Assembly (NCBI GenBank): GCA_947446575.1 | Contig: CANFHC010000027.1 | Coordinates: forward strand, 1 to 41,470 | Direction: 5' to 3' | Origin: Bacteriovoracaceae bacterium | GTDB taxonomy: Bacteria; Bdellovibrionota; Bacteriovoracia; Bacteriovoracales; Bacteriovoracaceae | Length of the DNA stretch: 41,470 bases | In this document: positions 2,652 to 38,628 of the stretch, piece by piece | Layout: every line of letters starts with the position of its first letter | How positions within the stretch are numbered: position 1 is the stretch's first letter | Position numbers and translations under genes: made by a program | The notes under the pieces: model-generated | What the model saw: the letters and a program-made list of their open reading frames with translations, nothing else | Told to the model about the DNA's origin: nothing | Databases searched by the model: none

Positions 2652-3485
2652 TTAAGAAATTAATCTTAGTGCAGAGTTAGGAATCTGGTTAGCTTGCGCT
2701 AATGTTGATACCGCTGCGTTTTTCACTACGTTGTTAGAAGCAAGGGCTGCTGAAGCTTCTGCAACATCCACGTCTTGAATAACTGATCTAGCACTGTCTT
2801 GGTTGATCGTTTGTGTTTCAAGGTTTTTAACCGTTGATCCAAGTCTTGATTGAATTGATCCCAAGTTCGCACGTTGTCCTGATACTTTTTCAATCGCTTT
2901 ATCTACGTTTTGGATTGCTGAAAGAGCGTCGTCTTTATTTGCAATTCCTGATCCTCCGATACCAATTGAACTTGCAGATGAGTCTGTTTCACCAGAGTCA
3001 TATGTAATTTTGTTTTGCTCACCAGCGAATGCTCCTACTTGGAAATCCATTGAGCCTTTACCTTTACCATTTAACAACTGAGCACCGTTAAATGTTGTTG
3101 ATTCTGAAATACGATCAACTTCTTTTGATAGCTGTTGATATTCTTTATCTAGAAAACCTCTTTCGTTCTCACCAACTGTGTCTGAAGCAGATTGGATTGT
3201 TAATTCTCTCAAACGTACTAAGATGTTTGAAGTTTCACTTAATCCACCTTCAGCTGTTTGAACAAGCGAGATACCGTCGTTTGCGTTTCGTGTTGCTTGT
3301 CTTAAACCTTTTGTTTGTGCTTCAAGGTTAGTTGCGATTGCCAGACCTGCGGCATCGTCTGAAGCTTTTGTAATTCTTTTACCTGAAGAAAGTTTTTCTA
3401 GTTCTGAGTTACCAGCATTAGATACTTCCTTTAAGTTTTTCTGTACTGATTGAGAAGCGATGTTCGTTGCAATTCTTAAACCCAT
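2652..3485 (-). CDS. fliC: Flagellin 1
   Basis: This 277-residue flagellin keeps the conserved D0/D1 N- and C-terminal helices (N-terminus MGLRIATNIASQSVQ, C-terminus ending in SALRLIS) with a short variable middle. It has no large D2/D3 domain, so the filament surface should be thin. It is exported by the flagellar type III system and polymerises into the filament. The frame extends 20 codons further upstream, but the paralogues begin at MGLR and AGGAGA lies just before the ATG at 3485, so that start is chosen. Ends and length match flagellin 2 closely, with the main differences in the middle third. It has its own promoter and leader. Confidence 0.97.
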   Translation of the reverse strand: MGLRIATNIASQSVQKNLKEVSNAGNSELEKLSSGKRITKASDDAAGLAIATNLEAQTKGLRQATRNANDGISLVQTAEGGLSETSNILVRLRELTIQSASDTVGENERGFLDKEYQQLSKEVDRISESTTFNGAQLLNGKGKGSMDFQVGAFAGEQNKITYDSGETDSSASSIGIGGSGIANKDDALSAIQNVDKAIEKVSGQRANLGSIQSRLGSTVKNLETQTINQDSARSVIQDVDVAEASAALASNNVVKNAAVSTLAQANQIPNSALRLIS

Positions 3486-3501
3486 AGTAATCTCCTGTTT
3501 T

Positions 3502-3544
3502 GAGAGTCCCCACTCTCTTGTTAAATGACTGCTTTTGTCAGTCA
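3502..3544 (-). promoter_or_regulatory. Flagellin 1 5' UTR with two stem-loops
   Basis: The predicted leader holds two perfect hairpins. The first, TGACTG/CAGTCA (3526-3544), starts within one or two bases of the expected transcription start. The second is GAGAGT-GGGG-ACTCTC (3502-3517), read on the transcript, with a GGGG loop 11 bases upstream of the ribosome binding site. Flagellin 2 has the same layout with different stem bases. Confidence 0.55.
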
Positions 3545-3550
3545 AACAAC

Positions 3551-3902: not shown

Positions 3903-4736
3903 TTAGCTGATCAATCTAAGCGCAGACATTGGAATCTGGTTAGCTTGAGCTAATGTTGATACCGCTGCATTTTTCACCACATTGTTTGAAGCAAGGGCCG
4001 CTGACGACTCTGCTACATCCACGTCTTGAATTACTGAGCGTGCACTATCTTGGTTAATTGTTTGTGTCTCAAGGTTTTTAACAGTTGATTGTAATCTTGA
4101 CTGTACTGAACCTAATTCTGCTCTTTGTCCTGAAACTTTTTCTATTGCAGAGTCTATGCTTGAGATTGCATCTAAAGCGTCACCTTTCTCATTAATTGCT
4201 GTACCTTTGATACCAATCGAAGAAGCTGAAGAGTCTGCCTTATCTGATTCGAATTGAATTTTGTTTTGTTCTCCGGCGAAGGCACCAACTTGGAAATCCA
4301 TTGTTCCTTTACCTTTGCCATTTAATAATTGAGCACCGTTAAATGTTGTTGATTCTGAAATGCGATCAACTTCTTTTGATAATTGTTGATATTCTTTATC
4401 TAAGAATCCTCTTTCTTGCTCACCAACAGTATCTGAAGCAGCTTGAACTGTTAATTCTCTCAAGCGTACTAAGATGTTTGAAGTTTCTGATAGTCCACCT
4501 TCAGCAGTTTGAACAAGCGAGATACCGTCGTTTGCGTTTCGTGTAGCTTGTCTTAAACCTTTTGTTTGAGCTTCAAGGTTAGTAGAGATCGCAAGGCCTG
4601 CGGCATCGTCTGAAGCCTTTGTGATTCTCTTACCTGATGATAATTTCTCTAATTCAGCATTACCTGCATTAGATACTTCTTTTAAGTTCTTTTGAACGGA
4701 CTGCGAAGCAATGTTTGTAGCAATTCTTAAACCCAT
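3903..4736 (-). CDS. fliC: Flagellin 2
   Basis: This 277-residue flagellin starts MGLRIATNIASQSVQ and ends PMSALRLIS. Its conserved D0/D1 helices are nearly identical to those of flagellin 1, so the two are a recent tandem duplication. Differences concentrate around residues 150-200, the surface-exposed part. AGGAGA precedes the ATG. It carries its own promoter, leader and terminator, so the copies are separate transcription units and can be expressed at different levels. Confidence 0.97.
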   Translation of the reverse strand: MGLRIATNIASQSVQKNLKEVSNAGNAELEKLSSGKRITKASDDAAGLAISTNLEAQTKGLRQATRNANDGISLVQTAEGGLSETSNILVRLRELTVQAASDTVGEQERGFLDKEYQQLSKEVDRISESTTFNGAQLLNGKGKGTMDFQVGAFAGEQNKIQFESDKADSSASSIGIKGTAINEKGDALDAISSIDSAIEKVSGQRAELGSVQSRLQSTVKNLETQTINQDSARSVIQDVDVAESSAALASNNVVKNAAVSTLAQANQIPMSALRLIS

Positions 4737-7724: not shown

Positions 7725-8558
7725 TTATCCAATCAATTTCAGGGCAGAAGATCCAGAGTTATTCGCTTGCGCTAGTACCGAAGTAGCAGCTGCAGAAAGA
7801 ATATTTCCTTTTGCAAGGTTAGCTGATTCTTGAGCCACGTCTGTATCTCTAATTCGAGAATTCGCTGCAGATAAGTTTTCAGTTCTAGATTCCAAGTTTG
7901 AAATCGTTGACTGTAGTCTGTTCTGTAGAGCTCCCAAAGAAGCGCGGTTTGCGTTGACTCCGTTAATAGCACTATCGATCTTTTCAAGATTGTTTTGAGC
8001 ATCACCCTTAGTTAGCACACCAAGACCATCCACCCCTAAATCTTTTATTCTCGCACTTGATTCTTCTGGCTTATAAGAAAGTCTGTCGTTTTTCTCGTCA
8101 TTCATAATCCCGATTTGGAAGTCTAGCTTGTCACCTTCACCGCTTAATAGGTTTTTTCCGTTAAACTGAGTTGATGTTGCAATCCTTTCCATCTCTTTTG
8201 ATAATTGTTGAAATTCAAGATCCGAAAACTTTCTTTCTTGGTCACCAATAGTATCTGAAGCTGCTTGTACTGAAAGCTCTCTTAATCTAATTAAGATGTT
8301 TGAACTTTCATTTAAACCACCCTCTGCGGTTTGAATCATCGAAATACCATCTCCTGCGTTTCTCGTTGCCTGTTGAGTTCCACGAATATTCGCTTTCAAT
8401 TTTTCAGAGATCGCTAAGCCTGCAGCGTCGTCTCCGGCCTTGTTAATTCTTGATCCAGATGACAATTTTGCAAGTGTGTCTGATTTATCATTCTCAACTT
8501 TAGAAAGTGAACTTTGTGCTCTCATTGACTGAACGTTTGTGTTAATTCTTAATCCCAT
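7725..8558 (-). CDS. fliC: Flagellin 3 (divergent paralogue)
   Basis: This 277-residue flagellin (MGLRINTNVQSMRAQ at the start, SSALKLIG at the end) has full D0/D1 regions and no D2/D3. It is clearly more diverged from flagellins 1 and 2 than they are from each other, so it may form a distinct filament segment. AGGAGA lies 5 bases before the ATG. A second, stronger Shine-Dalgarno sequence and a five-codon frame precede it (see 8560-8577). Confidence 0.97.
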   Translation of the reverse strand: MGLRINTNVQSMRAQSSLSKVENDKSDTLAKLSSGSRINKAGDDAAGLAISEKLKANIRGTQQATRNAGDGISMIQTAEGGLNESSNILIRLRELSVQAASDTIGDQERKFSDLEFQQLSKEMERIATSTQFNGKNLLSGEGDKLDFQIGIMNDEKNDRLSYKPEESSARIKDLGVDGLGVLTKGDAQNNLEKIDSAINGVNANRASLGALQNRLQSTISNLESRTENLSAANSRIRDTDVAQESANLAKGNILSAAATSVLAQANNSGSSALKLIG

Positions 8559-21037: not shown

Positions 21038-22426
21038 TTATTCAAGTCCAGCCCACTTGCGTGCAGATTTTCCAATTGATCCTGCTCCCAATGTCACAAC
21101 AATCGTCTTGTCATTTTTGTGAGACTCAATAACCTGATGTAGATGATCAATGTTTTCTATTTTTTTAGCAAAGTGTGGATGTAGTCTATTGATATCTTCT
21201 AATAAACGATCCGTTGTGATTCCATCGATGGGATTTTCGCTTGCGGCGTATATTGGAAGCAAATAAAGCTCGTCAGCATCGTTAAAACAATGAAGAAATT
21301 GATCCCAACAATCGCGAGTTCTTGTATAGCGATGAGGTTCAAAAATAACAATTTTTTTAAAGTCTGCACGAGTATCTTTTACAATTCTTAAAGTAGAAGC
21401 AATTTCTGTTGGATGGTGTCCGTAATCATCAACAACTTCAAAACCGTTTTCTTTAAATAATAATTGAAAGCGCCTACCAACTCCTTCAAGTTTGCTAGCA
21501 GCTTTCGCGATATCTTTAAACTTAAGCCCCATATGAAAAGCCAACACTGTAGCCCCAAGACAATTTAAAATATTATGACGTCCCGGAAGGTTGATGTGGA
21601 ATTTCTCTTGAAATTCCCCTTTATGATAAAGATCAAACCTCGTATCAAAATGTCCAAACTCAACATTCTTTGCAGTAAAATCTGCTGGAATATCTATTCC
21701 AAAAGTAACAGCTGGGCGCTTCATTTCAGATTTTAATTGAATTAGTTTTTCATCATGTCCATTGAGCGCAACTATTCCGTAAAATGGAATTTTATTTGCA
21801 AATTCGACAAAGGCCTTGAATAAATTCTCTTCAGTTCCATAATGATCCATATGATCGTTATCAATATTAGTGATAACTGACATTACTGGAGTTAAAAGAA
21901 GGAAAGTTCCATCTGACTCATCCGCTTCAGCAACAAGGAAATCTCCTTTACCTACTTTGGCGTGACCATTTAAATTTTTAACAATCCCGCCAATGATGTA
22001 AGTTGGATCTAAATGACATTCTTCTAAGATGGTTGCAAGAAATGAAGTTGTCGTTGTTTTTCCGTGAGTTCCTGCAACAGCTAAGCTGTATTTTAATCTC
22101 ATTAATTCAGCCAGCATTTCAGCACGGCGAATAACTGGTATACCTTCGCGCTTAGCGCGAGCGACTTCTGGATTTGTATCATTAACAGCAGAGCTATAAA
22201 CCACTGCCGTCACTTCATTTAAATTCTCTTCTTTGTGTCCGATATATATTTCAGCCCCTAGATTTTTTAATTTTTTTACGTTTCCAGACTCTGAAACATC
22301 AGAGCCTGAAACTTTGTATCCAGAAGAAAGTAAGACTTCAGCGATTCCGGACATTCCGATTCCACCAATTCCAACGAAATGAATTTTTACATTTTTATTT
22401 TGTAGGGCTTTGTTGTTTTTGAACAC
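21038..22426 (-). CDS. murC: UDP-N-acetylmuramate--L-alanine ligase
   Basis: This 462-residue Mur ligase has the N-terminal Rossmann motif GIGGIGMSGIAEVL, an intact ATP P-loop G119-T-H-G-K-T-T125, NIDNDHMDHYG (the metal segment lost in the neighbouring murD), GRHNILN and EPHRYTR. It adds L-alanine to UDP-MurNAc. All catalytic motifs are canonical. It directly follows ftsW, where murG would usually sit. The start lies just after a TCTCCTC stretch read from the plus strand (GAGGAGA ribosome binding site). Confidence 0.97.
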   Translation of the reverse strand: MFKNNKALQNKNVKIHFVGIGGIGMSGIAEVLLSSGYKVSGSDVSESGNVKKLKNLGAEIYIGHKEENLNEVTAVVYSSAVNDTNPEVARAKREGIPVIRRAEMLAELMRLKYSLAVAGTHGKTTTTSFLATILEECHLDPTYIIGGIVKNLNGHAKVGKGDFLVAEADESDGTFLLLTPVMSVITNIDNDHMDHYGTEENLFKAFVEFANKIPFYGIVALNGHDEKLIQLKSEMKRPAVTFGIDIPADFTAKNVEFGHFDTRFDLYHKGEFQEKFHINLPGRHNILNCLGATVLAFHMGLKFKDIAKAASKLEGVGRRFQLLFKENGFEVVDDYGHHPTEIASTLRIVKDTRADFKKIVIFEPHRYTRTRDCWDQFLHCFNDADELYLLPIYAASENPIDGITTDRLLEDINRLHPHFAKKIENIDHLHQVIESHKNDKTIVVTLGAGSIGKSARKWAGLE

Positions 22427-22452: not shown

Positions 22453-23643
22453 TTAAGCGTAGACTTCCTCTTCGTGCTCGTTTTCATTTTCACGACTTGC
22501 TCGAGCGGCTCTTTTAGCTTCGAATTTGAGGTCTCCCTGCAGCTCATCACGATAACCTTTTACGACTGAAAGTAGAAGACCTATGCCAAAAAAATTACAA
22601 ATTAATGATGATCCACCATAACTGATAAAAGGCAGGTTTAATCCCTTAGTTGGAAGCAATCCAAGAACAACTCCCATATTAAGTAGGGCCTGAAGACCAA
22701 GAACAAATATAATTGAAGACCCGAGGATAATTCCAATGCGGTCTTTGACTTGAAGGACTAACTTGAATCCAAAATAGATAAAAGCTATGAATAAACAGAT
22801 AATAAAAAAGACCCCGATAAAACCGAGCTCTTCTCCAATAACTGAAAAAATAAAATCGTTGTGGGCCTCAGGAAGATAAAAAAGTTTTTCGTTACTGTTT
22901 CCCAAACCTTGTCCAAAAGTTGAGCCATTTGCAAATGCCATATAAGATTGAATAATTTGAAAACCCGATCCTTGTGGATTTTTCCATGGATCTAAATAAG
23001 TCAATAGACGCTTAACTCGGTATGCCTGAGAAAAAAGAATAAAAATTCCTCCCATGGCTCCCGAAACGAGCGAGTAATAAAAGTATTTTCTTGGAAATGA
23101 ACTCATAAAGCAGACAAATGCAATAACCATAAAACAAATACTAAATGATCCAAAATCTGGTTGTTTAATTAAAAGGGCCAATGGTAAAAAGAGGGATCCA
23201 CCGTGCTTTAGGCGCTCTTTGGTATCCATCTTGTTCCAGTTTTCAAAAAACGAAAGTGCAGACAAAATGACTGTGAATTTTACAATTTCTCCCGGCTGTA
23301 TACTCATACCACCAAAAGTTAACCATCGGCTTGCGCCTTTAGCTGCAGAACCAACACCTTTTATAATTGTCAAAGCAACAATCATTGAAGCAGCGATATT
23401 AATCAAATAACCGTACTTAAGCCAAAATGTAAATTTAGTCCGTGAAACCATGAAGGCCACTGTTATAGAAAGACCCAGATATATGAGTTGTCGAATAATA
23501 TAATGGAGGGAGCTTCCAAATTTTTCAGCCGCAAGAATAAAACTTGCTGACCAAACCATAATGAGACCAATGGTGATGATAATCGCCAAGGTCGACAAGA
23601 AGGTCTTTACTAATCTATCTACATCCGAAATGTGTTCGTTCAT
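22453..23643 (-). CDS. ftsW: Septal peptidoglycan glycosyltransferase FtsW
   Basis: This 396-residue SEDS protein has about ten transmembrane helices, the catalytic-region segment WLTFGGMSIQPGEIVKF near 110, AHNDFIFSVIGEELGF, and the signature LPFISYGGSSL near 345. With FtsI it makes septal glycan strands. No Shine-Dalgarno precedes the ATG at 23643, and a stem arm ends about 17 bases upstream. It is the first gene after the murD terminator and so begins the second half of the cluster. Confidence 0.96.
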   Translation of the reverse strand: MNEHISDVDRLVKTFLSTLAIIITIGLIMVWSASFILAAEKFGSSLHYIIRQLIYLGLSITVAFMVSRTKFTFWLKYGYLINIAASMIVALTIIKGVGSAAKGASRWLTFGGMSIQPGEIVKFTVILSALSFFENWNKMDTKERLKHGGSLFLPLALLIKQPDFGSFSICFMVIAFVCFMSSFPRKYFYYSLVSGAMGGIFILFSQAYRVKRLLTYLDPWKNPQGSGFQIIQSYMAFANGSTFGQGLGNSNEKLFYLPEAHNDFIFSVIGEELGFIGVFFIICLFIAFIYFGFKLVLQVKDRIGIILGSSIIFVLGLQALLNMGVVLGLLPTKGLNLPFISYGGSSLICNFFGIGLLLSVVKGYRDELQGDLKFEAKRAARASRENENEHEEEVYA

Positions 23644-23809: not shown

Positions 23810-23841
23810 AAAAAAAAAGCCCTCAAAGAGGGCCTTTTTTT
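23810..23841 (-). terminator. Terminator after murD, inside the dcw cluster
   Basis: GCCCTC/GAGGGC (23819-23833) with a 3-base loop has A-runs before and T-runs after on both strands. It lies just past the murD stop and divides the cluster into two transcripts unless readthrough occurs. Confidence 0.85.
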
Positions 23842-23845
23842 ATAA

Positions 23846-25234
23846 TTATAATTGATAAACGAGTTTCTTAAAATAGTTCCCGCGCTCTTCATAGTCTCTG
23901 AAAAAGTCAGAAGCAGGATTGCCTGGAGAAAGAAGAATTACATCTCCTGTTCTCGATTTTTGGTAAGCAAAGAGAACAGATTCTTCAAAAGATCCGACAA
24001 TATAAGTCTGATTATGATCGCCAAGAGCACGGTTTAAGCGTTCTTTACATTCACCCACCAAAACTAAAACGCGAGCGTTCGCTATCATTTCTTTCGCGAA
24101 TGGATCGAAGTTTAAATCTTCATTATCTTTTCCACCAGCAATCAAGATCACAGGCTCTTTAAATGATTTTAAGCTAGAAAGCATTTCTGGCATTGTTTCT
24201 GCTTTTGAGTCGTTATAAAAACAAACACCATTTTTTTCCATGATGAATTCCATTCTATTTGGAATTCCTGGGAATTTTTCAATACATGTTTGGATTGCTT
24301 CGTCCCCAACATCAAGCGCTTTACAAGCTGTTACTGCTGCCATTAGGTTTTCGCGATTTGCTTGTCCTACAATTCTCATTTTCATTACTTTGAATTCTGA
24401 GTGGTAGTTGATGTTCGAGTGAATTCTTCTGTCGTGGAAATGTGTTCCTTGGATTTCGTTCATTACACCCAAAGTTACATATGATCTACGAGAGTACCAG
24501 TATACTTGGCAATTCGCGTTTCTAATTGAAGCGTTGTTTGCAAGGGTGTCGTAGTTTGCAATAAGTGTATCTTCTGGAGAAAGTTTTTTAATAATAGATA
24601 ATTTTGTTTCCATGTATTCACTAACAGATGAAAAGCTAGCCTTAGAGAAGTTTTCTCCAATGTTTGGAAGAACAACAACTTTTGGATGGAAGTCTTGCAG
24701 CGATTTCATTTGAAGAGCTGAAACTTCAACTACGACATAATCAATTTCGTTCATGTTTGGAAGAAGACAATATTCAATAAATGGAGCATCTGAAGTTCCA
24801 CCAACGAAAACATTTTTTCCATCGATTTTTAAAGTATATCCAATCATCGCTGCGATTGTTGTACGACCATAAGATCCACAAACAGCGACTACTGGTTTTT
24901 TACAAAGCTTGTAAGCTAGAGCGAAGTCACTATAAACTTCTTTTCCACTTTTGCGAGCCAGTTCCAATTGAGGAAGATTCGGATTGATCGCTGCTGAGTA
25001 AACAACAACGTCAGCATCAAGAAAATCTTCATCTTTATGCTCACCGAAAGTCATCTCTGGAGCTGGTTCAATTTTTTTAAGTTTCTTAACTGATTTATTC
25101 AAATCGAAAATCGGTTTGATATCTGTCACTCGAATTTCGCATTCTAGTTTATTAAAAAAATTAATAAGAGAAAAACCTGTTTTCCCAATTCCTACGATTA
25201 AAACTTTTTTACCTTTAAATCTTTCCATTTCCAT
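23846..25234 (-). CDS. murD: UDP-N-acetylmuramoylalanine--D-glutamate ligase, degenerate motifs
   Basis: This 462-residue Mur ligase in the murD position has the Rossmann start VLIVGIGKTGFSL, the carbamylated-lysine region (K211 in METKLSI), PNRMEF, NDSKAE and LLSPGNPASDFF near the end. These match MurD, which adds D-glutamate to UDP-MurNAc-Ala. However, the ATP P-loop reads G120-S-Y-G-R124-T-T rather than GTNGKST, and the usual Asp-His-Met-Asp segment reads ENFSKA (194-199). Both changes are seen directly. It could be a MurD with altered ATP binding or an inactive copy backed up elsewhere. It may start at the second Met (25228). Confidence 0.88.
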   Translation of the reverse strand: MEMERFKGKKVLIVGIGKTGFSLINFFNKLECEIRVTDIKPIFDLNKSVKKLKKIEPAPEMTFGEHKDEDFLDADVVVYSAAINPNLPQLELARKSGKEVYSDFALAYKLCKKPVVAVCGSYGRTTIAAMIGYTLKIDGKNVFVGGTSDAPFIEYCLLPNMNEIDYVVVEVSALQMKSLQDFHPKVVVLPNIGENFSKASFSSVSEYMETKLSIIKKLSPEDTLIANYDTLANNASIRNANCQVYWYSRRSYVTLGVMNEIQGTHFHDRRIHSNINYHSEFKVMKMRIVGQANRENLMAAVTACKALDVGDEAIQTCIEKFPGIPNRMEFIMEKNGVCFYNDSKAETMPEMLSSLKSFKEPVILIAGGKDNEDLNFDPFAKEMIANARVLVLVGECKERLNRALGDHNQTYIVGSFEESVLFAYQKSRTGDVILLSPGNPASDFFRDYEERGNYFKKLVYQL

Positions 25235-25239
25235 TTAAA

Positions 25240-26316
25240 CTACCTCGTTTTGAGCGTTGAGAGAGCAAGGATTGCTAAACATACGCTAATGATCCAGAAG
25301 CGAACAGTTACTTTCGTTTCCGGCCAGCCAAGTTTTTCAAAGTGATGATGTATCGGAGCCATTTTAAAAACGCGTACTCCGCGAGTTTTAAATGAAGCCA
25401 CTTGAATAATTACCGAGAGTGCTTCCGTAACAAAAATTCCTCCGATAACAACGAAGAGAAATTCTGATTTCGCAAGTACAGCAATCGTTCCAAGTGTACC
25501 TCCCAAAGACAATGAACCTACATCACCCATGAAAATCTGTGCTGGGTAGGAGTTATACCACAAAAAGCCAATTCCTGCACCTATAATAGCCGAAGTTAGC
25601 ACGGTGATCTCACCAATTCCCTCAATGTAGGGAATGTATAAATATTGCGAAAATTCTTTGTGTCCTGTTACATATGTTAAAAAACCTAATGTAGCCGCAC
25701 TAATCATGATTGGACCAATGGCCAAACCATCAAGGCCATCTGTGAGGTTTACAGCGTTACTAAATCCTACGATAACAATTGCACCAAAAAGAACATAGCC
25801 ATAGCCCAAATCCATAACCGGGCTCTTGATAAATGGAAGATATAATTGAGTGTTGATAATGTTTAACTTAACGACGATAAGCATTGCAATAATTGCAGTG
25901 GTAAATTGCCAAGCCAGTTTTCCTTTGGCCGAAACTCCTTTTGTATCTTTTTTCAAAACTTTCAGATAGTCGTCATAAAAGCCCAAAAGAAAATATGAAA
26001 ATGTGACACCTAAGGTTACTTGCAATGGGACAGAAAAAAAGTTTCCACAAAGTAGGGTTGTAACAAAAATACTACCCAGCATAAAAACACCACCCATGGT
26101 TGGTGTTCCTTTTTTCTTAAAATGTGACTCTGGCCCATCTTCACGGATAATTTGACCAAATTGCATGCGCTTCATGAAAGAAATAAAAAGCCTTCCCCAA
26201 AAAATCGAAATGATTGTTCCGAGCAAGAAAGCGAGAAAGGATCTGAAGGTAATATATTTAAAAAGATTAAAAGGTTTTACTAGATGACTGAGGGGATAGA
26301 GTAGATGATAAAGCAT
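25240..26316 (-). CDS. mraY: Phospho-N-acetylmuramoyl-pentapeptide transferase
   Basis: This 358-residue polytopic membrane enzyme has the catalytic GFYDDYLKV region, NAVNLTDGLDGLA, FMGDVGSL and PIHHHFEKLGW (the MraY HHH motif). It transfers phospho-MurNAc-pentapeptide to undecaprenyl phosphate to make lipid I. It ends 5 bases before murD. With murG missing nearby, lipid II must be completed by a gene elsewhere. Confidence 0.97.
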   Translation of the reverse strand: MLYHLLYPLSHLVKPFNLFKYITFRSFLAFLLGTIISIFWGRLFISFMKRMQFGQIIREDGPESHFKKKGTPTMGGVFMLGSIFVTTLLCGNFFSVPLQVTLGVTFSYFLLGFYDDYLKVLKKDTKGVSAKGKLAWQFTTAIIAMLIVVKLNIINTQLYLPFIKSPVMDLGYGYVLFGAIVIVGFSNAVNLTDGLDGLAIGPIMISAATLGFLTYVTGHKEFSQYLYIPYIEGIGEITVLTSAIIGAGIGFLWYNSYPAQIFMGDVGSLSLGGTLGTIAVLAKSEFLFVVIGGIFVTEALSVIIQVASFKTRGVRVFKMAPIHHHFEKLGWPETKVTVRFWIISVCLAILALSTLKTR

Positions 26317-26353: not shown

Positions 26354-27742
26354 TTAAACTATACTCATCAGGGTCTCTAATTGTAAAGAGCGACTCGCTT
26401 TTACGAAGACATATTTATAATTCTTTCTAATCTTTTTCCATTCTTCGTGAAAATCTTCTTTAACCAGGTACGCGCTCTTGGGACTTTCTAATCCTTGCTG
26501 GTAAAAATCTTTGTAACGGCCAATAAAACTAACATTTTTTATTCCACATGATTTTAAATGCAGAGCTATTTCTTTGTGAAGTTCTTCTGCAAAGATCCCC
26601 AACTCATTCATATCACCCAAAACAAAATAACATTCATCTAAAGATACGCCTTTCTTTTTCATGATATTAACAAATGAATCAATAGAAACTCGCATAGAGC
26701 TTGGATTAGCATTGTAAGCATCAAGAAAAATATTTTCTATCCACTGAGAGCGATTCATTGAAGGCTGTGCATATTCTACTGCTGCAGCCAGGATTTGTGC
26801 TGTTTTTTCAGGAAACATTCTCATGGCAAAAATCGCAGTTCCTGCCAGGTTTTTTAAATTATGATGTTCAAGAATATTATTGTTAGTTATCAACAGTTTT
26901 TTGTCATCAATGTTGATTGTAATTTTATGGCCATCGATTTCAACCTTAGCATCTCCATTTTTTTCACCATAAGTCGTTAATCCTTTTGAAGGAACTAACT
27001 TATTTAAAAAAACATCATCAGCGTTAACTACAAATATCCCAATACCATTCGCATTTTTTAAAACACTGAAATAAAGTGCATTTTTTTCTTTGAAAATATT
27101 TTCGATTGAATGCATGAATTCAATATGAGCGGCACCAATATTGGTAATCATTCCGTGTTCTGGGTGAGCAATCGCACAGAGCTCATTAATCTCGCCCGGA
27201 TGATTCATTCCCATTTCAATGATGGCAATATCGTGTGCATTCGTAATTTTGAAAATTGTAAGAGGAACACCGATATGATTATTTAAATTTCCCTTAGTCG
27301 CTAACACTTTTCCTGGAAACACCGCTTCAAGTAATGATGAAAGCATCTCTTTGTGAGTTGTTTTACCATTAGACCCAGTAATACCGATAATTTTTCTATT
27401 ATCTTTTTTCCCTCTCCATTCTGTTATGTATAGAGAAGCGAGTTCTTGAATGAAATTTAATGTTTCAGTCACTTCAATAAATAATACTTTTGGATGAGCA
27501 ATTGAAAGCTGCTCTATGATTAGAAAGCGGTCGTGTTTAGCGGTGTATACAACAACTCTGGCCCCAAGTTCTAAAACATGTTCTACGTAATTAAATCCGT
27601 CAAAGTTTTCGCCGTGAAGCGCAACAAACGTCTCACCTTTTTTAAAATTTCTTGAGTCGGTGTTAATAACTAACTCAGCATCTGTTGGACCAGTTAACTT
27701 CAAAACAGTTGTCATTTGAGGAAAAAAACGATTGTTTAGCAT
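26354..27742 (-). CDS. murF: UDP-MurNAc-tripeptide--D-alanyl-D-alanine ligase
   Basis: This 462-residue Mur ligase has an intact P-loop G123-S-N-G-K127-T-T, IIEMGMNHPGEI, MITNIGAAHIEFM and FLDAYNANPSSM. It adds D-Ala-D-Ala to the tripeptide. The D-Ala-D-Ala ligase gene (ddl), often in this cluster, is not present in the window. It starts one base after the murE stop, so the two are coupled. Confidence 0.96.
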   Translation of the reverse strand: MLNNRFFPQMTTVLKLTGPTDAELVINTDSRNFKKGETFVALHGENFDGFNYVEHVLELGARVVVYTAKHDRFLIIEQLSIAHPKVLFIEVTETLNFIQELASLYITEWRGKKDNRKIIGITGSNGKTTHKEMLSSLLEAVFPGKVLATKGNLNNHIGVPLTIFKITNAHDIAIIEMGMNHPGEINELCAIAHPEHGMITNIGAAHIEFMHSIENIFKEKNALYFSVLKNANGIGIFVVNADDVFLNKLVPSKGLTTYGEKNGDAKVEIDGHKITINIDDKKLLITNNNILEHHNLKNLAGTAIFAMRMFPEKTAQILAAAVEYAQPSMNRSQWIENIFLDAYNANPSSMRVSIDSFVNIMKKKGVSLDECYFVLGDMNELGIFAEELHKEIALHLKSCGIKNVSFIGRYKDFYQQGLESPKSAYLVKEDFHEEWKKIRKNYKYVFVKASRSLQLETLMSIV

Positions 27743-27743
27743 T

Positions 27744-29174
27744 CTATATTCCAGTCTTAAAATTCATCACTACATTAAAATCACTAAAGGGATGCTTCAC
27801 ACCCTTTATTTCCTGATATTCTTCGTGCCCCTTGCCAGCTATTAACACTATTTCTTTTTTTCCAATAGATTCTAGGGCAGCATGAATTGCTTTTTGTCGA
27901 TCAACGACTGCTTCATAACTATTTTTTATTCCAGCAAGAATATCAATAATAATATCTTCGGGTGCTTCATCTCTTGGATTATCAGAAGTCACTATTATTT
28001 TATTTGCGAAATCTGAAACTGCTTTTCCCATGAGAGGGCGTTTCGTTTTATCACGATTTCCACCACAACCAAAAACAACAGTTAGTGAATGATCCGGGAA
28101 AGCATTTTTAATTGCGTTGCCAATATTTACCAAAGCATCTGGCGTATGAGCATAATCAACAATGGCAAAATTGTTTTCTTCTAATTCAATTATAGAAAAT
28201 CTTCCCAATGGAGTTATAATCTTTTTAAGAGGAATGTTTTTTAATTTGTCTTCACCAAATAATTCTTCATTTAACTGCAATGCGACTTCAGCATTACTTT
28301 GGTTGTATGAGGAATGATAAAAAAGAGGGCGCTCTTCTAAAGATTTACCGTAGCCTCTTTCGTCTAATGTTTTGGCAATTTTTATCTTTGTGTTTGGTTC
28401 ACTTTTTAAGATCAATTCATTTAATTCTCTCTCTTGAGCTGGAATTAAAAGGAAATTCTTTTCTTTTAAATACTTCGATTCAATTAATAGCTTAGCTTTA
28501 AAATATTCTTCCATCGTTCGGTGGTAATCGAGATGGTCTTGGGAAAAGCTCGTCCATGCCGCTGCCTCAAGCTTAATATCAAATAAACGATCTTGAACAA
28601 GTGCATGAGAGCTAACTTCCATAAAACAAACTTCGTAAATATCCTGAAAACGATGAATGAGTTTTCTCATTTCCACATAAGAAGGTGTCGTTGATTCAAT
28701 GTCTTTTATCAATGCACCATTCACATCTTGCACGCCGATGGTACCGATAGAAATAGCAGGATGCCCAATTAATGATGAAATTTGCATCGCAAGATTAACC
28801 GTCGTCGTTTTGCCATTGGTTCCCGTTACTCCTACGATTTTCAATGTGTTTTTGTTAGGAAAAAGTTCATCTAATATTATTTTTTGAACTTTTAGAAAAT
28901 CTTCGGACTTTATAAAGACTACGTCGTCGTTTTTAACAATTTCTGCTGATTCAAAATTTAAAATGAGTAAGCCGGGTGTTGCACCTTCCATTCTTTTTTG
29001 AAAACTCACAATTGATTTTTCTTCACGTAGATTTATTTTATAAAAAATAACATCGTTTTTCGAAGAGTTTTGTAGGTTTGTTGAGATATTTGTAAAAACA
29101 GCCCCAGACTCACTAATACTATTTTTTGATTGGATAGAATCATTTATGAGAGTTATTAGATTTTTTTTATTCAT
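27744..29174 (-). CDS. murE: UDP-MurNAc-Ala-Glu--meso-diaminopimelate ligase
   Basis: This 476-residue Mur ligase has the intact P-loop G118-T-N-G-K122-T-T, the FMEVSSHAL segment and DHLDYH. The DNPR motif in SDNPRDEAPEDII selects meso-diaminopimelate over lysine, so the wall should be of the usual Gram-negative type. GKGHEEYQ closes the C-terminal domain. Its ATG lies inside the 3' end of ftsI (8-base overlap). Confidence 0.96.
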   Translation of the reverse strand: MNKKNLITLINDSIQSKNSISESGAVFTNISTNLQNSSKNDVIFYKINLREEKSIVSFQKRMEGATPGLLILNFESAEIVKNDDVVFIKSEDFLKVQKIILDELFPNKNTLKIVGVTGTNGKTTTVNLAMQISSLIGHPAISIGTIGVQDVNGALIKDIESTTPSYVEMRKLIHRFQDIYEVCFMEVSSHALVQDRLFDIKLEAAAWTSFSQDHLDYHRTMEEYFKAKLLIESKYLKEKNFLLIPAQERELNELILKSEPNTKIKIAKTLDERGYGKSLEERPLFYHSSYNQSNAEVALQLNEELFGEDKLKNIPLKKIITPLGRFSIIELEENNFAIVDYAHTPDALVNIGNAIKNAFPDHSLTVVFGCGGNRDKTKRPLMGKAVSDFANKIIVTSDNPRDEAPEDIIIDILAGIKNSYEAVVDRQKAIHAALESIGKKEIVLIAGKGHEEYQEIKGVKHPFSDFNVVMNFKTGI

Positions 29175-34876: not shown

Positions 34877-35467
34877 TTATTCTAATCCACCCTTTAAATT
34901 CATCAGTACCAACTTAGAAATTGTTTTAAGTGTATCAAAGACTCCTGAGCCCTTCACGGCCATCGCTTCAAACTCTGGAACGTTCCATTTATTTAGGGCC
35001 TCATGCAAATCTTTTACTGAAGTCGTGTTGGGAAGATCGCGTTTATTCCATTGCATAACCAGAGGAATCTTTCCAATATCATAACCTTGATCAATGAGAT
35101 TTTTTTCTAAAGATTTAAGCGATTCGATATTTGATTCCATTCTTTCAACTTGTGAATCAGCAACGAAAATAATTCCATCTACTCCGCGCAAGATTAGTTT
35201 TCGAGAGGCTTCATAAAAAACTTGTCCGGGAACAGTGTAGAGGTGAAATCGTGTTTTAAAACCACGGATCTCGCCAAGGTCCAAAGGAAGAAAATCAAAA
35301 AAGAGCGTGCGCTCATTTTCTGTATTTAATGAAATGATATTGCCTTTGTTGTCTCCGCTTGTTTTTTGATAAACATATTGGATATTAGTCGTTTTACCAC
35401 CAAGGCCCGGGCCGTAGTAGACGATCTTGCAATTAACTTCTTTTGTTACATAATTTACGAAAGACAT
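34877..35467 (-). CDS. mglA: MglA-type polarity GTPase
   Basis: This 196-residue small Ras-like GTPase has the P-loop G19-P-G-L-G-G-K25-T-T, the switch II region LYTVPGQVFY (Pro in place of the Ras Asp-Thr-Ala, typical of MglA), and WNKRDLPN for guanine. MglA sets the leading pole in Myxococcus and is needed for prey invasion in Bdellovibrio (family knowledge). The adjacent upstream gene resembles a roadblock protein. It closes the dnaX-ybaB-recR operon. Confidence 0.93.
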   Translation of the reverse strand: MSFVNYVTKEVNCKIVYYGPGLGGKTTNIQYVYQKTSGDNKGNIISLNTENERTLFFDFLPLDLGEIRGFKTRFHLYTVPGQVFYEASRKLILRGVDGIIFVADSQVERMESNIESLKSLEKNLIDQGYDIGKIPLVMQWNKRDLPNTTSVKDLHEALNKWNVPEFEAMAVKGSGVFDTLKTISKLVLMNLKGGLE

Positions 35468-35476
35468 TTTATTACC

Positions 35477-36013
35477 TTAACTTTTCGCAAATGCGAACAA
35501 GTGATCCATCTCAGAATCCGTTATATCGCCGAATAAAAAATTATTTTTATCATTCGACTTCATGCTTTTTGCTGTTTGTTTTTTTAAAATAGAATCTTTT
35601 AATTCTTCTTCTAAAAACTCACTAAAACTCGTGGCCATCTCTCTAATTTTATTTTTAATAAATCCAGGATTGATTTCATCGTGATAAATTAGACCAAGGT
35701 ATAACTCTTCTGTCCCAACGGTAATCGGAACGATATAAACCCCTTGAGCAGATGTATCAAAACTTAATCTATATCCTTCTTTGGATTCTTCTTTGGGAAT
35801 GAAACTAGCAAGTGCCCTTGCGGCTTGCCACACACCACCTAACAAAGCACCGATAGACGACTTGGAAAGTGAATCCGCTAGATTATTGTTGTGATAGAGA
35901 ACAACTCCGTCATAACGAATTAGAAAAAATGAATATCGATTTATTTTTTCATCTATCTCACAAGACTTAAAAAATGTTTCAACATATTTTGGAATATTAT
36001 TGTTTAGGCTCAT
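35477..36013 (-). CDS. Roadblock/LC7-like protein, possible MglA partner
   Basis: This 178-residue cytosolic protein is not one I recognise with certainty. Its beginning (FLIRYDGVVLYHNNNLADSL, then IGALLGGVWQAARAL) has the strand-helix pattern of roadblock domains such as MglB, with a Gly-Ala-Leu-Leu helix start, and VYIVPITVGTEELYLGLIY as the following beta pair. The last 60 residues are a charged helix and tail. MglB-type proteins are GAPs for MglA. It lies 9 bases upstream of mglA and overlaps recR by ATGA, so co-translation is likely. The family assignment is inference. Confidence 0.6.
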   Translation of the reverse strand: MSLNNNIPKYVETFFKSCEIDEKINRYSFFLIRYDGVVLYHNNNLADSLSKSSIGALLGGVWQAARALASFIPKEESKEGYRLSFDTSAQGVYIVPITVGTEELYLGLIYHDEINPGFIKNKIREMATSFSEFLEEELKDSILKKQTAKSMKSNDKNNFLFGDITDSEMDHLFAFAKS

Positions 36014-36603
36014 AGGTGTCTGCGATTCTCCAAAGCTTTGGTTATTGTCAATGAATCTACAAATTCTAAACTTCCACCCATTGGAATACCAAACCCAATG
36101 CGATCAACGCTCACGCTAGAGGGGAGCATTTGTTTAATATAGGCACAAGTTGCATCTCCTTCCACTGAAGGGTTAACTGCTAATATGAGTTCTTCAATTT
36201 CTTCATCTGAAACTCTGTGAATAAGATTATCTAGTTTTAATTCATCGGGGCCTATGCCAAGAAGAGGATTTAAAACACCAAAGAGAATATGAAATTTTCC
36301 ACGGAAATTTCCACTGCGCTCGATAGCTAGGCAATCAGTTACTGATTCAACAACACAAATTGTTTTTGAGTGCGTTCTGTGTTGATCCAAGCAAATTTTG
36401 CAAAGTTGATCATCACAAAACATTCCACATTTTGAGCAATGGTTTAACTCTGAAAGACTTTTAATGGCATTAGCAAACGAAATAAGATCTTCTTTATTCC
36501 ATTTGGTCATGATGAGCGATTGGCGCAAAGCTGTTTTTTCACCAACACCAGGAAGGCGTGAAAACTGCTTAACGACTCTTAAAAGTTTTTCAGGCAGCTC
36601 CAT
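36010..36603 (-). CDS. recR: Recombination protein RecR
   Basis: This 197-residue protein has the helix-hairpin-helix start RLPGVGEKTALR, the zinc finger CSKCGMFCDDQLCKIC, and a TOPRIM domain beginning ICVVESVTDCLAIE. RecR works with RecO/RecF in gap repair. It has the normal length. Its 3' ATGA overlap links it to the roadblock-like gene, so DNA repair and polarity genes share a transcript. Confidence 0.96.
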   Translation of the reverse strand: MELPEKLLRVVKQFSRLPGVGEKTALRQSLIMTKWNKEDLISFANAIKSLSELNHCSKCGMFCDDQLCKICLDQHRTHSKTICVVESVTDCLAIERSGNFRGKFHILFGVLNPLLGIGPDELKLDNLIHRVSDEEIEELILAVNPSVEGDATCAYIKQMLPSSVSVDRIGFGIPMGGSLEFVDSLTITKALENRRHL

Positions 36604-36927: not shown

Positions 36928-38628
36928 TTATTTTTTATTATCAATAATTACTTTATCAACTTTAGCGTTAAACATTTTTTCCGCCTCTTTCAAGAGCGGA
37001 TTGCTTTTAAATGTATCGACTCTTTCTTGCATTGAGATTTCCGCCAACTGCTCTTTTATGTCTGCAGTTGAGATAAAGTTTTCATCAGCGTGAACTTCAA
37101 TCAATTGCAATTTAATTTTATTTTTTTCTATATTAAAGTATTCAGAGAGATGGTTCACAACTTTTTGGTGAACTTCCGAATCACTTAGATAATCAAAGAA
37201 AACCATTCCCGAAAATCCAAAACCAAGCTCAACACTTACTTCCCCATTTTCAAAACGTAGTGGGGAAGTAATGTTTCCTTGTTCTAGGTTTGAAGCTGTG
37301 GCCGGTGATTTAGTGTTTAAATAAGTTAAAAAACCTTCCCACGTTAAATCAGTCGCTACTGGTTTTGATGTGTTGATTTCTTTAACAATTTCTGGCGTTG
37401 TTATTTTTTCTTCCAAAGGGCGCCCACTTTTAGCTTCAAGTTCTGCTTTTGCGATTTCTGCTTGAAGAATACTGGCAACACTTGGCTTTTCGTGTTCAAC
37501 AAGTGGCTCATTCAAAACGACTGAGGCCTTAACAACTTCTGGTGTTACCTGAACTGGAGATTGTGAGCTTTCATCGCGTTTAATTTTATTTGTAAAAAAA
37601 CTTCTTCTTAGTGTGACCTTATAGAGTAAAACTTCAAACGCTTTTTCTGGTGCGATTGAAGAAAATATCCAAGAAGTTTCACGCGCCAACGTTTCATAAA
37701 CCCAAATGAGCTCAGCATTGCTTAAGTCTTTTTTGTTTTTTAAATCGAGAAATATTTCGTCCAATAATCCGCTAGCAATATTTTTGACGGGTACATTTTC
37801 TTCTAATAATTTATTATAAACACTTGATAGTGATGTAGTATCTCCAGCATAAAGAAAAGTGATAATGTTTCTCAAGCTTGAAGGCCCAGCGACACCTAAC
37901 GAAGATGTTAAGTGCTCTTCTGTGATAACTCCGTTTTGAGAAGTTGTTAGAACTTGATCAAGCAATGATAGAGTGTCACGCACAGATCCACGCCCAAGCA
38001 CGGCTAGCTGATGAATTAATTCTTCACGCTCGAAATTAATTCCTTCTACACTCGCTATTACTTTAACGTGAGCAACTAGATCCGGAACACTCACATTTCT
38101 AAAGTCAAAACGCTGACAACGAGACAAAACAGTTCCCAGAAGTTTTTGTGCTTCTGTTGTAGCAAAAATAAAAACAACGTGAGCTGGTGGCTCTTCTAAT
38201 GTTTTTAAAAGGGCATTGAAAGCGTTTGTTGAAAGCATGTGAACTTCATCGATCACATAGACTTTATATTTACCCGAGGTAGGCAAATAGTGAACGTTGG
38301 AAATGAGTTCGCGAATGTTATCAACAGAGTTGTTTGAAGCTCCATCGATTTCAATGACGTTCATAGAAGTTTCTGTATCAAAATCTAAACAAGCTCGGCA
38401 CTCGTTACATGAGTTGCCATCTGCTGTTAAGTTTTCACAACGAATAGCTTTTGCGAAAATTCGGGCAACTGATGTTTTACCAACACCGCGAGTTCCGACC
38501 AACATGTAAGCATGACCAATTTTTTTATTGATAATTGCATTTTGAAGAGCGCGCGTGACATGGGCCTGGCCAATCACATCTTGAAATTTTTTAGGGCGCC
38601 ACTTCCTAGCTAATACTTGGTACGACAT
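36928..38628 (-). CDS. dnaX: DNA polymerase III subunits gamma/tau
   Basis: This 566-residue clamp-loader ATPase has the P-loop GTRGVGKT (45-52), the zinc cysteines C64, C74, C77 and C80, VYVIDEVHMLS and the ATTEAQKLLGTVLSRCQRF sensor region. Domains IV-V (about 350-566) are the diverged tau part. At 37594-37600 a run of seven U in frame (S343-F-F) forms a U UUU UUU slippery heptamer. A -1 shift gives Tyr-Lys-stop, a 347-residue product resembling gamma. The main reading gives tau. Confidence 0.96.
   Translation of the reverse strand: MSYQVLARKWRPKKFQDVIGQAHVTRALQNAIINKKIGHAYMLVGTRGVGKTSVARIFAKAIRCENLTADGNSCNECRACLDFDTETSMNVIEIDGASNNSVDNIRELISNVHYLPTSGKYKVYVIDEVHMLSTNAFNALLKTLEEPPAHVVFIFATTEAQKLLGTVLSRCQRFDFRNVSVPDLVAHVKVIASVEGINFEREELIHQLAVLGRGSVRDTLSLLDQVLTTSQNGVITEEHLTSSLGVAGPSSLRNIITFLYAGDTTSLSSVYNKLLEENVPVKNIASGLLDEIFLDLKNKKDLSNAELIWVYETLARETSWIFSSIAPEKAFEVLLYKVTLRRSFFTNKIKRDESSQSPVQVTPEVVKASVVLNEPLVEHEKPSVASILQAEIAKAELEAKSGRPLEEKITTPEIVKEINTSKPVATDLTWEGFLTYLNTKSPATASNLEQGNITSPLRFENGEVSVELGFGFSGMVFFDYLSDSEVHQKVVNHLSEYFNIEKNKIKLQLIEVHADENFISTADIKEQLAEISMQERVDTFKSNPLLKEAEKMFNAKVDKVIIDNKK
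37586..37600 (-). other. Candidate dnaX frameshift site
   Basis: The heptamer T TTT TTT (37600-37594) is in the right frame for tandem -1 slippage, and the shifted frame reads TAC AAA TAA (stop at 37588-37586). AAAGG lies roughly 16 bases upstream. The position, at the end of clamp-loader domain III, matches where gamma would end. Confidence 0.4.

Follow-up and report, generated by a model that had tools for sequence, protein, structure and literature searches.

In E. coli MurD, the substrate UDP-N-acetylmuramoyl-L-alanine (UMA) is contacted by Gly73, Asn138 and His183 (PMC12844806), and Lys198 is the carbamylated Mg-site lysine, mutants of which are much less active (PMC4816537). The role of the P-loop lysine in triphosphate binding has been described at the superfamily level (PMC3060825). 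Here we describe a gene in the murD position of the division and cell wall (dcw) cluster of a Bacteriovoracaceae bacterium (GenBank assembly GCA_947446575.1), located on a stretch of 41,470 nucleotides of contig CANFHC010000027.1 that we call the window, whose product lacks several of these residues, together with a second, unlinked MurD whose motifs are intact.

The dcw-cluster protein resembles E. coli MurD and S. agalactiae 3LK7 in its fold, its domain order, its position between mraY and ftsW and its equivalents of R302, D317, E157, N268 and N271. Unlike these, it has an arginine in the P-loop, has lost the equivalents of His183, Asn138 and Gly73, carries a family-specific His-rich block, and shares its genome with a canonical MurD encoded elsewhere. 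Other described systems are similar in part. MurT, of the MurT/GatD lipid II amidotransferase, is likewise a Mur-ligase fold repurposed beyond stem-peptide extension, but it is catalytically active, uses ATP and is partnered by GatD, and the dcw protein scores 285 bits with the MurD model, far above its 24 bits with MurT. MurD2/MurL of Xanthomonas likewise involves an alternative MurD that is added to or replaces the usual one; it differs in that L-Glu is added and then epimerized, whereas the genome studied here has the glutamate racemase MurI, and it is the dcw copy that is altered. Finally, MglA, a distant MurG homologue able to replace MurG (PMC8092295), likewise represents an unlinked paralogue that takes over the reaction of a dcw enzyme, except that in that case the dcw MurG stays a normal enzyme, whereas here it is the dcw MurD that is missing catalytic residues.

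By descent the dcw protein is clearly a MurD. The curated MurD model TIGR01087 matches it over model positions 1–439 of 441 with 285.3 bits (cut-off 211.95), and the best structural match of its AlphaFold2 model (predicted local distance difference test score of 79, with the C-terminal end poorly predicted) is 3lk7, with a Z score of 30.1 over 397 residues and a root mean square deviation of 4.8. When residues are mapped onto E. coli MurD in the literature numbering, which is one less than the translated position, the window protein shows K115R, N138T, H183F and replacement of S71-P72-G73 by S-A-A. Its P-loop thus reads GSYGRTT and departs from the GxxGK[ST]T pattern of an active MurD, and the three UMA-contacting positions Gly73, Asn138 and His183 are occupied by A, T and F. 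E157, K198, N268, N271, R302, D317 and K319 are kept. Judged from these residues, the protein is a MurD by descent and fold but not, as far as the catalytic features go, an active one, and the losses predict that it should neither form the acyl-phosphate nor join D-glutamate (D-Glu). The initial annotation of this DNA had read GSYGRTT and ENFSKA at exactly these positions, and had pointed out that MurC, MurE and MurF of the same cluster are canonical; we likewise find GTHGKTT, GTNGKTT and GSNGKTT, respectively, in these three. Its further claim that the DHMD metal segment is lost holds for the His residue, but the Asp residues are not diagnostic, as the intact second copy reads QNHGERY at this site.

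These changes are not peculiar to the window. As the initial annotation had proposed, we aligned the protein with its relatives, and the form with Arg and without His proved to be clade-wide: the P-loop residue is Arg in 54 of 54 distinct dcw copies from Bacteriovoracaceae, and His183 is found in none of the 54. In contrast to this, neither the P-loop Lys nor His183 is changed in any of 32 second copies or of 26 single-copy dcw MurDs, and within the DHMD segment His183 is the residue that separates these family dcw copies from intact MurDs. One subclade of dcw copies (L036–L040, L072 and L073) has lost Lys198 as well. The named relatives, at 68–97% identity, are Bacteriovoracaceae, including Bacteriovorax sp. 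and Halobacteriovorax marinus. Searched with a profile built from the degenerate dcw copies, 107 of 115 family genomes yield one dcw-type copy, among them all 70 that are at least 90% complete, which we refer to as high-quality genomes. An exception to the family pattern is a 3.2-kb contig (G024:C33, L063) of an 87% complete genome of the window's family, which encodes a canonical partial MurD directly before murC; this is possibly a contaminating contig or a divergent genus.

A second, unlinked MurD

The genome that contains the window encodes a second MurD at G000:C26:13782-15203 (L005:7783-9204), which scores over the TIGR01087 cut-off and has the motifs GTNGKTT, GGNIG, ELSS, QNHGERY (with the DHMD-type His) and NDAKS. 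In a representative set of second copies, K115, N138, E157, H183, K198, R302, D317 and K319 are intact in 32 of 32, and a second-MurD profile finds a full-length copy in 65 of the 70 high-quality family genomes and a truncated copy in two. The gene order around the second murD is conserved in many genera of the family, where its neighbors are a methyltransferase gene, transcribed divergently, and an aminopeptidase gene, both names being read from the sequences. The initial annotation had offered as one alternative that the dcw copy is repurposed and a normal MurD exists elsewhere, and a canonical MurD is indeed encoded in this genome and in nearly all relatives. It had also allowed that the altered form might be an ordinary clade variant with no second copy; the form is clade-wide, yet the second copy exists.

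The second copies do not appear to be recent duplicates of the dcw gene. They form clades apart from the dcw copies, namely f1, f6/f7/f24, and f15 with f22 (these family labels are our own; f1 is the family of the window and f6 contains Bdellovibrio), the last pair being joined only in the tree without outgroups. Because MurDs of other phyla, used as outgroups, fall between the f1 and f6/f7/f24 clades and the dcw copies, we regard recent duplication within a genus as unsupported. Transfer and an old paralogue both fit as the origin of the second MurD and cannot be told apart given the long branches.

MurI, the glutamate racemase, is present in the window's genome with a score over its cut-off, so that the normal D-Glu route is available. 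The L-Glu route of MurD2/MurL was set aside on the same ground, as this pathway is not needed when MurI is present; no search for MurL was made. MurG lies outside the dcw cluster at G000:C7:130521-131516, as the sole match, with 224.9 bits and thus below the curated cut-off of 250.25. Mpl-like murein-peptide recycling ligases are encoded at G000:C11:84781-86124 and, in Bdellovibrio, at G157:C1:2024241-2025623; the curated Mpl cut-off is passed by the Bdellovibrio ligase and missed by that of the window's genome.

Altered dcw MurDs across Bdellovibrionota

We ran the second-type profile over 144 genomes of the phylum. Two MurDs occur in all genomes sampled from families f6, f7, f15, f17, f22 and f24 and in almost every f1 genome; in most of the other families one MurD was found. 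The state of the dcw copy follows this division closely. In single-MurD lineages, 26 of 26 sampled dcw MurDs are canonical, whereas in two-MurD lineages, which include Bdellovibrio, 22 of 23 are altered at the active site. The residues concerned vary between families: K115, N138, H183 and the SPG loop in f1; N138, H183, K198 and K319 in f17 and f24; E157, K198 and K319 in f7; N138 and K198 in f22; N138 and SPG in f15; and mostly N138 alone in f6. In the f7 copies L094, L095 and L165 the P-loop is intact, which by the residues lost is a different route to a degenerate active site.

Altered dcw MurDs of two-MurD lineages fall on at least 4–5 separate branches. In a dcw tree built without the active-site columns, both traits, possession of a second MurD and an altered site, need five changes; f15 groups with the canonical families f8, f12 and f19, and f22 and f6 lie among canonical relatives. 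We conclude that the dcw copy has undergone the same change independently in several Bdellovibrionota lineages with a second MurD, and that a normal MurD elsewhere in the genome is a more general feature than the initial annotation had guessed.

Bdellovibrio bacteriovorus itself (G157:C1; L141 and L142; f6/g83) encodes two MurDs. Its dcw MurD has Asn138 replaced by Ala (GGANE), and its canonical unlinked copy lies near 46.5–47.7 kb. One dcw copy of the Bdellovibrio family, L149, retains N138 despite a second MurD. In family f8, genome G211 (G211:C363, L167) has an extra divergent MurD-like fragment with GTKGKGT and PEH beside a canonical dcw MurD; the fragment was excluded from the trees and is possibly a pseudo-MurD that arose outside the cluster.

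Constraint on the dcw copy and its possible role

Despite its altered active site, the degenerate MurD is the most conserved of the four dcw Mur ligases in all 29 loci that were compared with the window. Mean identity to the window over these loci is 80.6% for the dcw MurD, 66.8% for MurC, 50.9% for MurE and 49.3% for MurF. The contrast with the second MurD is larger still, mean identities being 92.7% versus 68.8% within the genus and 68.9% versus 37.6% in other genera. Within the genus, the median ratio of nonsynonymous to synonymous substitution rates (dN/dS) of the dcw MurD is 0.030; MurC (0.044), MurE (0.096) and the second MurD (0.116) have higher values, and synonymous sites are near saturation. 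The conservation of the dcw MurD resembles that of FtsA. In the tree, the family dcw clade has a long stem (0.8–1.1 changes per site) and short tips, as expected from a change of function followed by new constraint.

The constraint is unevenly distributed along the protein. The site of the lost His is among its least conserved stretches, with 0 of 14 columns invariant in the family. By contrast, the block at residues 246–281 (Table 1) is family-specific, belongs to the most conserved stretches of the degenerate copies, and is absent from canonical MurDs. A C-terminal segment at residues 391–437, also one of the most conserved stretches, is common to most of the phylum's dcw copies, whether their active site is intact or degenerate, and occurs in none of the 32 second copies. 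We considered whether this segment, GEAKE...EEAV...QKSR, is a unique new motif, but a less strict version belongs to the MurD consensus in general, as in Acetoanaerobium, P. aeruginosa and T. maritima, so that it is special only in its constancy and in its QKSR and NRxxGD details. The Arg P-loop is itself kept in the family as GxxGR[ST], which suggests that this loop may still bind a nucleotide or some other ligand. In the single-copy lineages that were compared, too, the dcw MurD is the best conserved Mur ligase. The extra constraint therefore seems older than the loss of activity, which suggests, without proving it, that the dcw protein already had an additional function when it was still catalytic.

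An enzyme fold that has lost catalytic residues under purifying selection, together with an active relative covering the reaction, characterizes a pseudoenzyme. Going by sequence, the dcw MurD shows the former and the second MurD, with its intact motifs, would supply the latter. We therefore think it probable that the Bacteriovoracaceae dcw MurD is a conserved pseudoenzyme, that ligation has moved to the second MurD, and that the dcw copy is kept for a non-catalytic job. The dcw protein keeps the three-domain MurD fold but has given up the P-loop Lys, the substrate- and metal-site His183, Asn138 and the SPG loop (in the one subclade also Lys198). Under this explanation D-Glu would be added by the unlinked MurD, and the non-catalytic job would account for the stricter retention of the dcw copy relative to MurC, MurE, MurF and the working MurD. 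Most likely this job would be that of a structural or allosteric part of an assembly of the Mur ligases, MraY and the FtsW side, possibly with nucleotide still bound at the GxxGR[ST] loop. This suggestion leans on the reported association of Mur ligases through MurG (PMC6420597).

A wider form of the proposal, which we put forward tentatively and with less assurance, is that the dcw MurD of Bdellovibrionota has a non-catalytic function in the cell wall or division that predates the loss of activity. Wherever a second MurD was held, the enzymatic role would have moved to it and the dcw copy would have become a purely structural or regulatory pseudo-MurD, so that nature would have separated the two roles of a Mur ligase repeatedly.

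Several observations weigh against the pseudoenzyme explanation. Three of the 70 high-quality genomes (G007, G034 and G067, with 220–310 contigs each) yielded no second MurD, and in family f2, where no genome is more than 88% complete, degenerate dcw fragments occur but a second MurD was not detected. The supported independent pairs number only four; all are concordant (p = 0.125), but a test on four pairs cannot reach significance, so that the link between a second MurD and an altered dcw copy is consistent rather than statistically proven. Of the seven classic Mur invariants, five (E157, N268, N271, R302 and D317) are still in place in the window protein and Arg preserves the charge of the P-loop, so residual nucleotide binding or slow catalysis is possible. 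The scaffold role, finally, draws on conservation, gene position and literature on other species. We found no literature on degenerate or duplicate MurDs, or on MurD in Bdellovibrio, which is weak evidence since subscription journals were mostly not covered.

The best surviving alternative, which we consider unlikely, is that the dcw protein has acquired a ligand-dependent role as a sensor or altered ligase, binding a nucleotide, a muropeptide precursor or both through the Arg P-loop and the His-rich block and then signalling or making another product. The P-loop Arg is invariant rather than drifting, R302, D317, N271 and K319 are kept in the family, and the QGTHFHxRRIHSNI block is both family-specific and highly conserved; the retention of the Arg P-loop and of many nucleotide-side residues keeps a sensor in consideration. 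Against it, other lineages lose different residues (E157/K198/K319 in f7, N138/K198 in f22), a pattern that loss of catalysis fits better than one new chemistry, and neither a partner gene nor a ligand is known.

Even less probable is the other alternative of the initial annotation, in which the ATP and metal site has been rebuilt. The dcw copy would then remain the MurD that does the work, and the second copy would do another job, such as that of a conditional or recycling ligase. A TIGR01087 score over the cut-off, the presence of E157, K198, R302 and D317, and conservation as high as an essential gene would show are all compatible with it. But it is the second copies that are intact at every catalytic residue tested, and the dcw copy that is without Gly73, Asn138, His183 and the P-loop Lys; the subclade lacking the carbamylated Lys has lost a residue whose mutation makes E. 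coli MurD much less active (PMC4816537), and single-MurD lineages never show such changes. Between its two alternatives the evidence thus favors the repurposed copy over the rebuilt site. Sequencing or assembly error or a decaying pseudogene would explain the missing motifs and nothing more, and is effectively ruled out by the open frame and shared residues of 54 distinct copies taken from many assemblies, a dN/dS of ∼0.03 and presence in 70 of 70 high-quality genomes.

We also find no specific support for the suggestion that a predatory diet of prey wall material caused the changes. They track the second MurD, and MurI, the Mpl-like ligase, MurC, MurE and MurF are all present, so that the precursor pathway looks complete.

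If the dcw MurD is a pseudoenzyme, the gene annotated as murD in the dcw clusters of Halobacteriovorax, Bacteriovorax and their relatives probably does not encode a working MurD, and both the pathway models and the essentiality calls made for these predators have to be revised. A Mur ligase kept without its chemistry would also be evidence for a long-suggested but hard-to-prove structural role in the precursor-making complex. Because the change recurs in several lineages and their single-MurD sisters can serve as controls, the question can be tested and the two roles taken apart, and Bdellovibrio bacteriovorus offers a genetically tractable member that has two MurDs and shows the change in a milder form.

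Feature coordinates and other observations in the window

The dcw cluster of the window lies on the minus strand in the order ftsI, murE, murF, mraY, murD, ftsW, murC, murB, ftsQ, ftsA, ftsZ. Coordinates are collected in Table 1.

Table 1. The dcw-cluster MurD of the window, its altered motifs and conserved segments, and neighboring genes.
Feature	Position in window	Strand	Basis or remark
dcw-cluster MurD paralogue (probable pseudo-MurD)	23846..25234	-	Open reading frame, 462 aa; TIGR01087 285 bits; three-domain MurD fold
P-loop GSYGRTT, residues 120-126	24857..24877	-	Lys replaced by Arg124, codon CGT 24865-24863
S-A-A, residues 80-82, replaces S71-P72-G73	24989..24997	-	Gly73 equivalent lost
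GGTS, residues 145-148, replaces GGNI	24791..24802	-	Asn138 equivalent is Thr147
ENFSKA, residues 194-199, replaces EDHMDR	24638..24655	-	His183 equivalent lost
WYSRxSxxxxGVxxxIQGTHFHxRRIHSNIxYHSEF block, residues 246-281	24392..24499	-	Alignment, comparison, conservation
LVGECKERLNRALGDHxQTYIVGSFEESVLFAYQKSRTGDVILLSP, C-terminal, residues 391-437	23924..24064	-	51% of columns invariant in family
murC	21038..22426	-	Canonical GTHGKTT and DHMD
ftsW	22453..23643	-	Downstream of dcw murD
mraY	25240..26316	-	Adjoins dcw murD directly upstream
murF	26354..27742	-	Canonical GSNGKTT
murE	27744..29174	-	Canonical GTNGKTT and DHLD

A strong terminator-like hairpin lies at 23811-23841, past the stop codon of the dcw murD and before ftsW. 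As it separates these two genes, the cluster may consist of two transcription units. Elsewhere in the window, the minus strand carries three flagellin genes in a span of ∼6 kb (2652-3545, 3903-4736 and 7725-8558), and recR (36010-36603), an Arf-like small GTPase gene that is MglA-like by our reading of its sequence (34877-35467) and a dnaX-like gene (36928-38628) lie close together.
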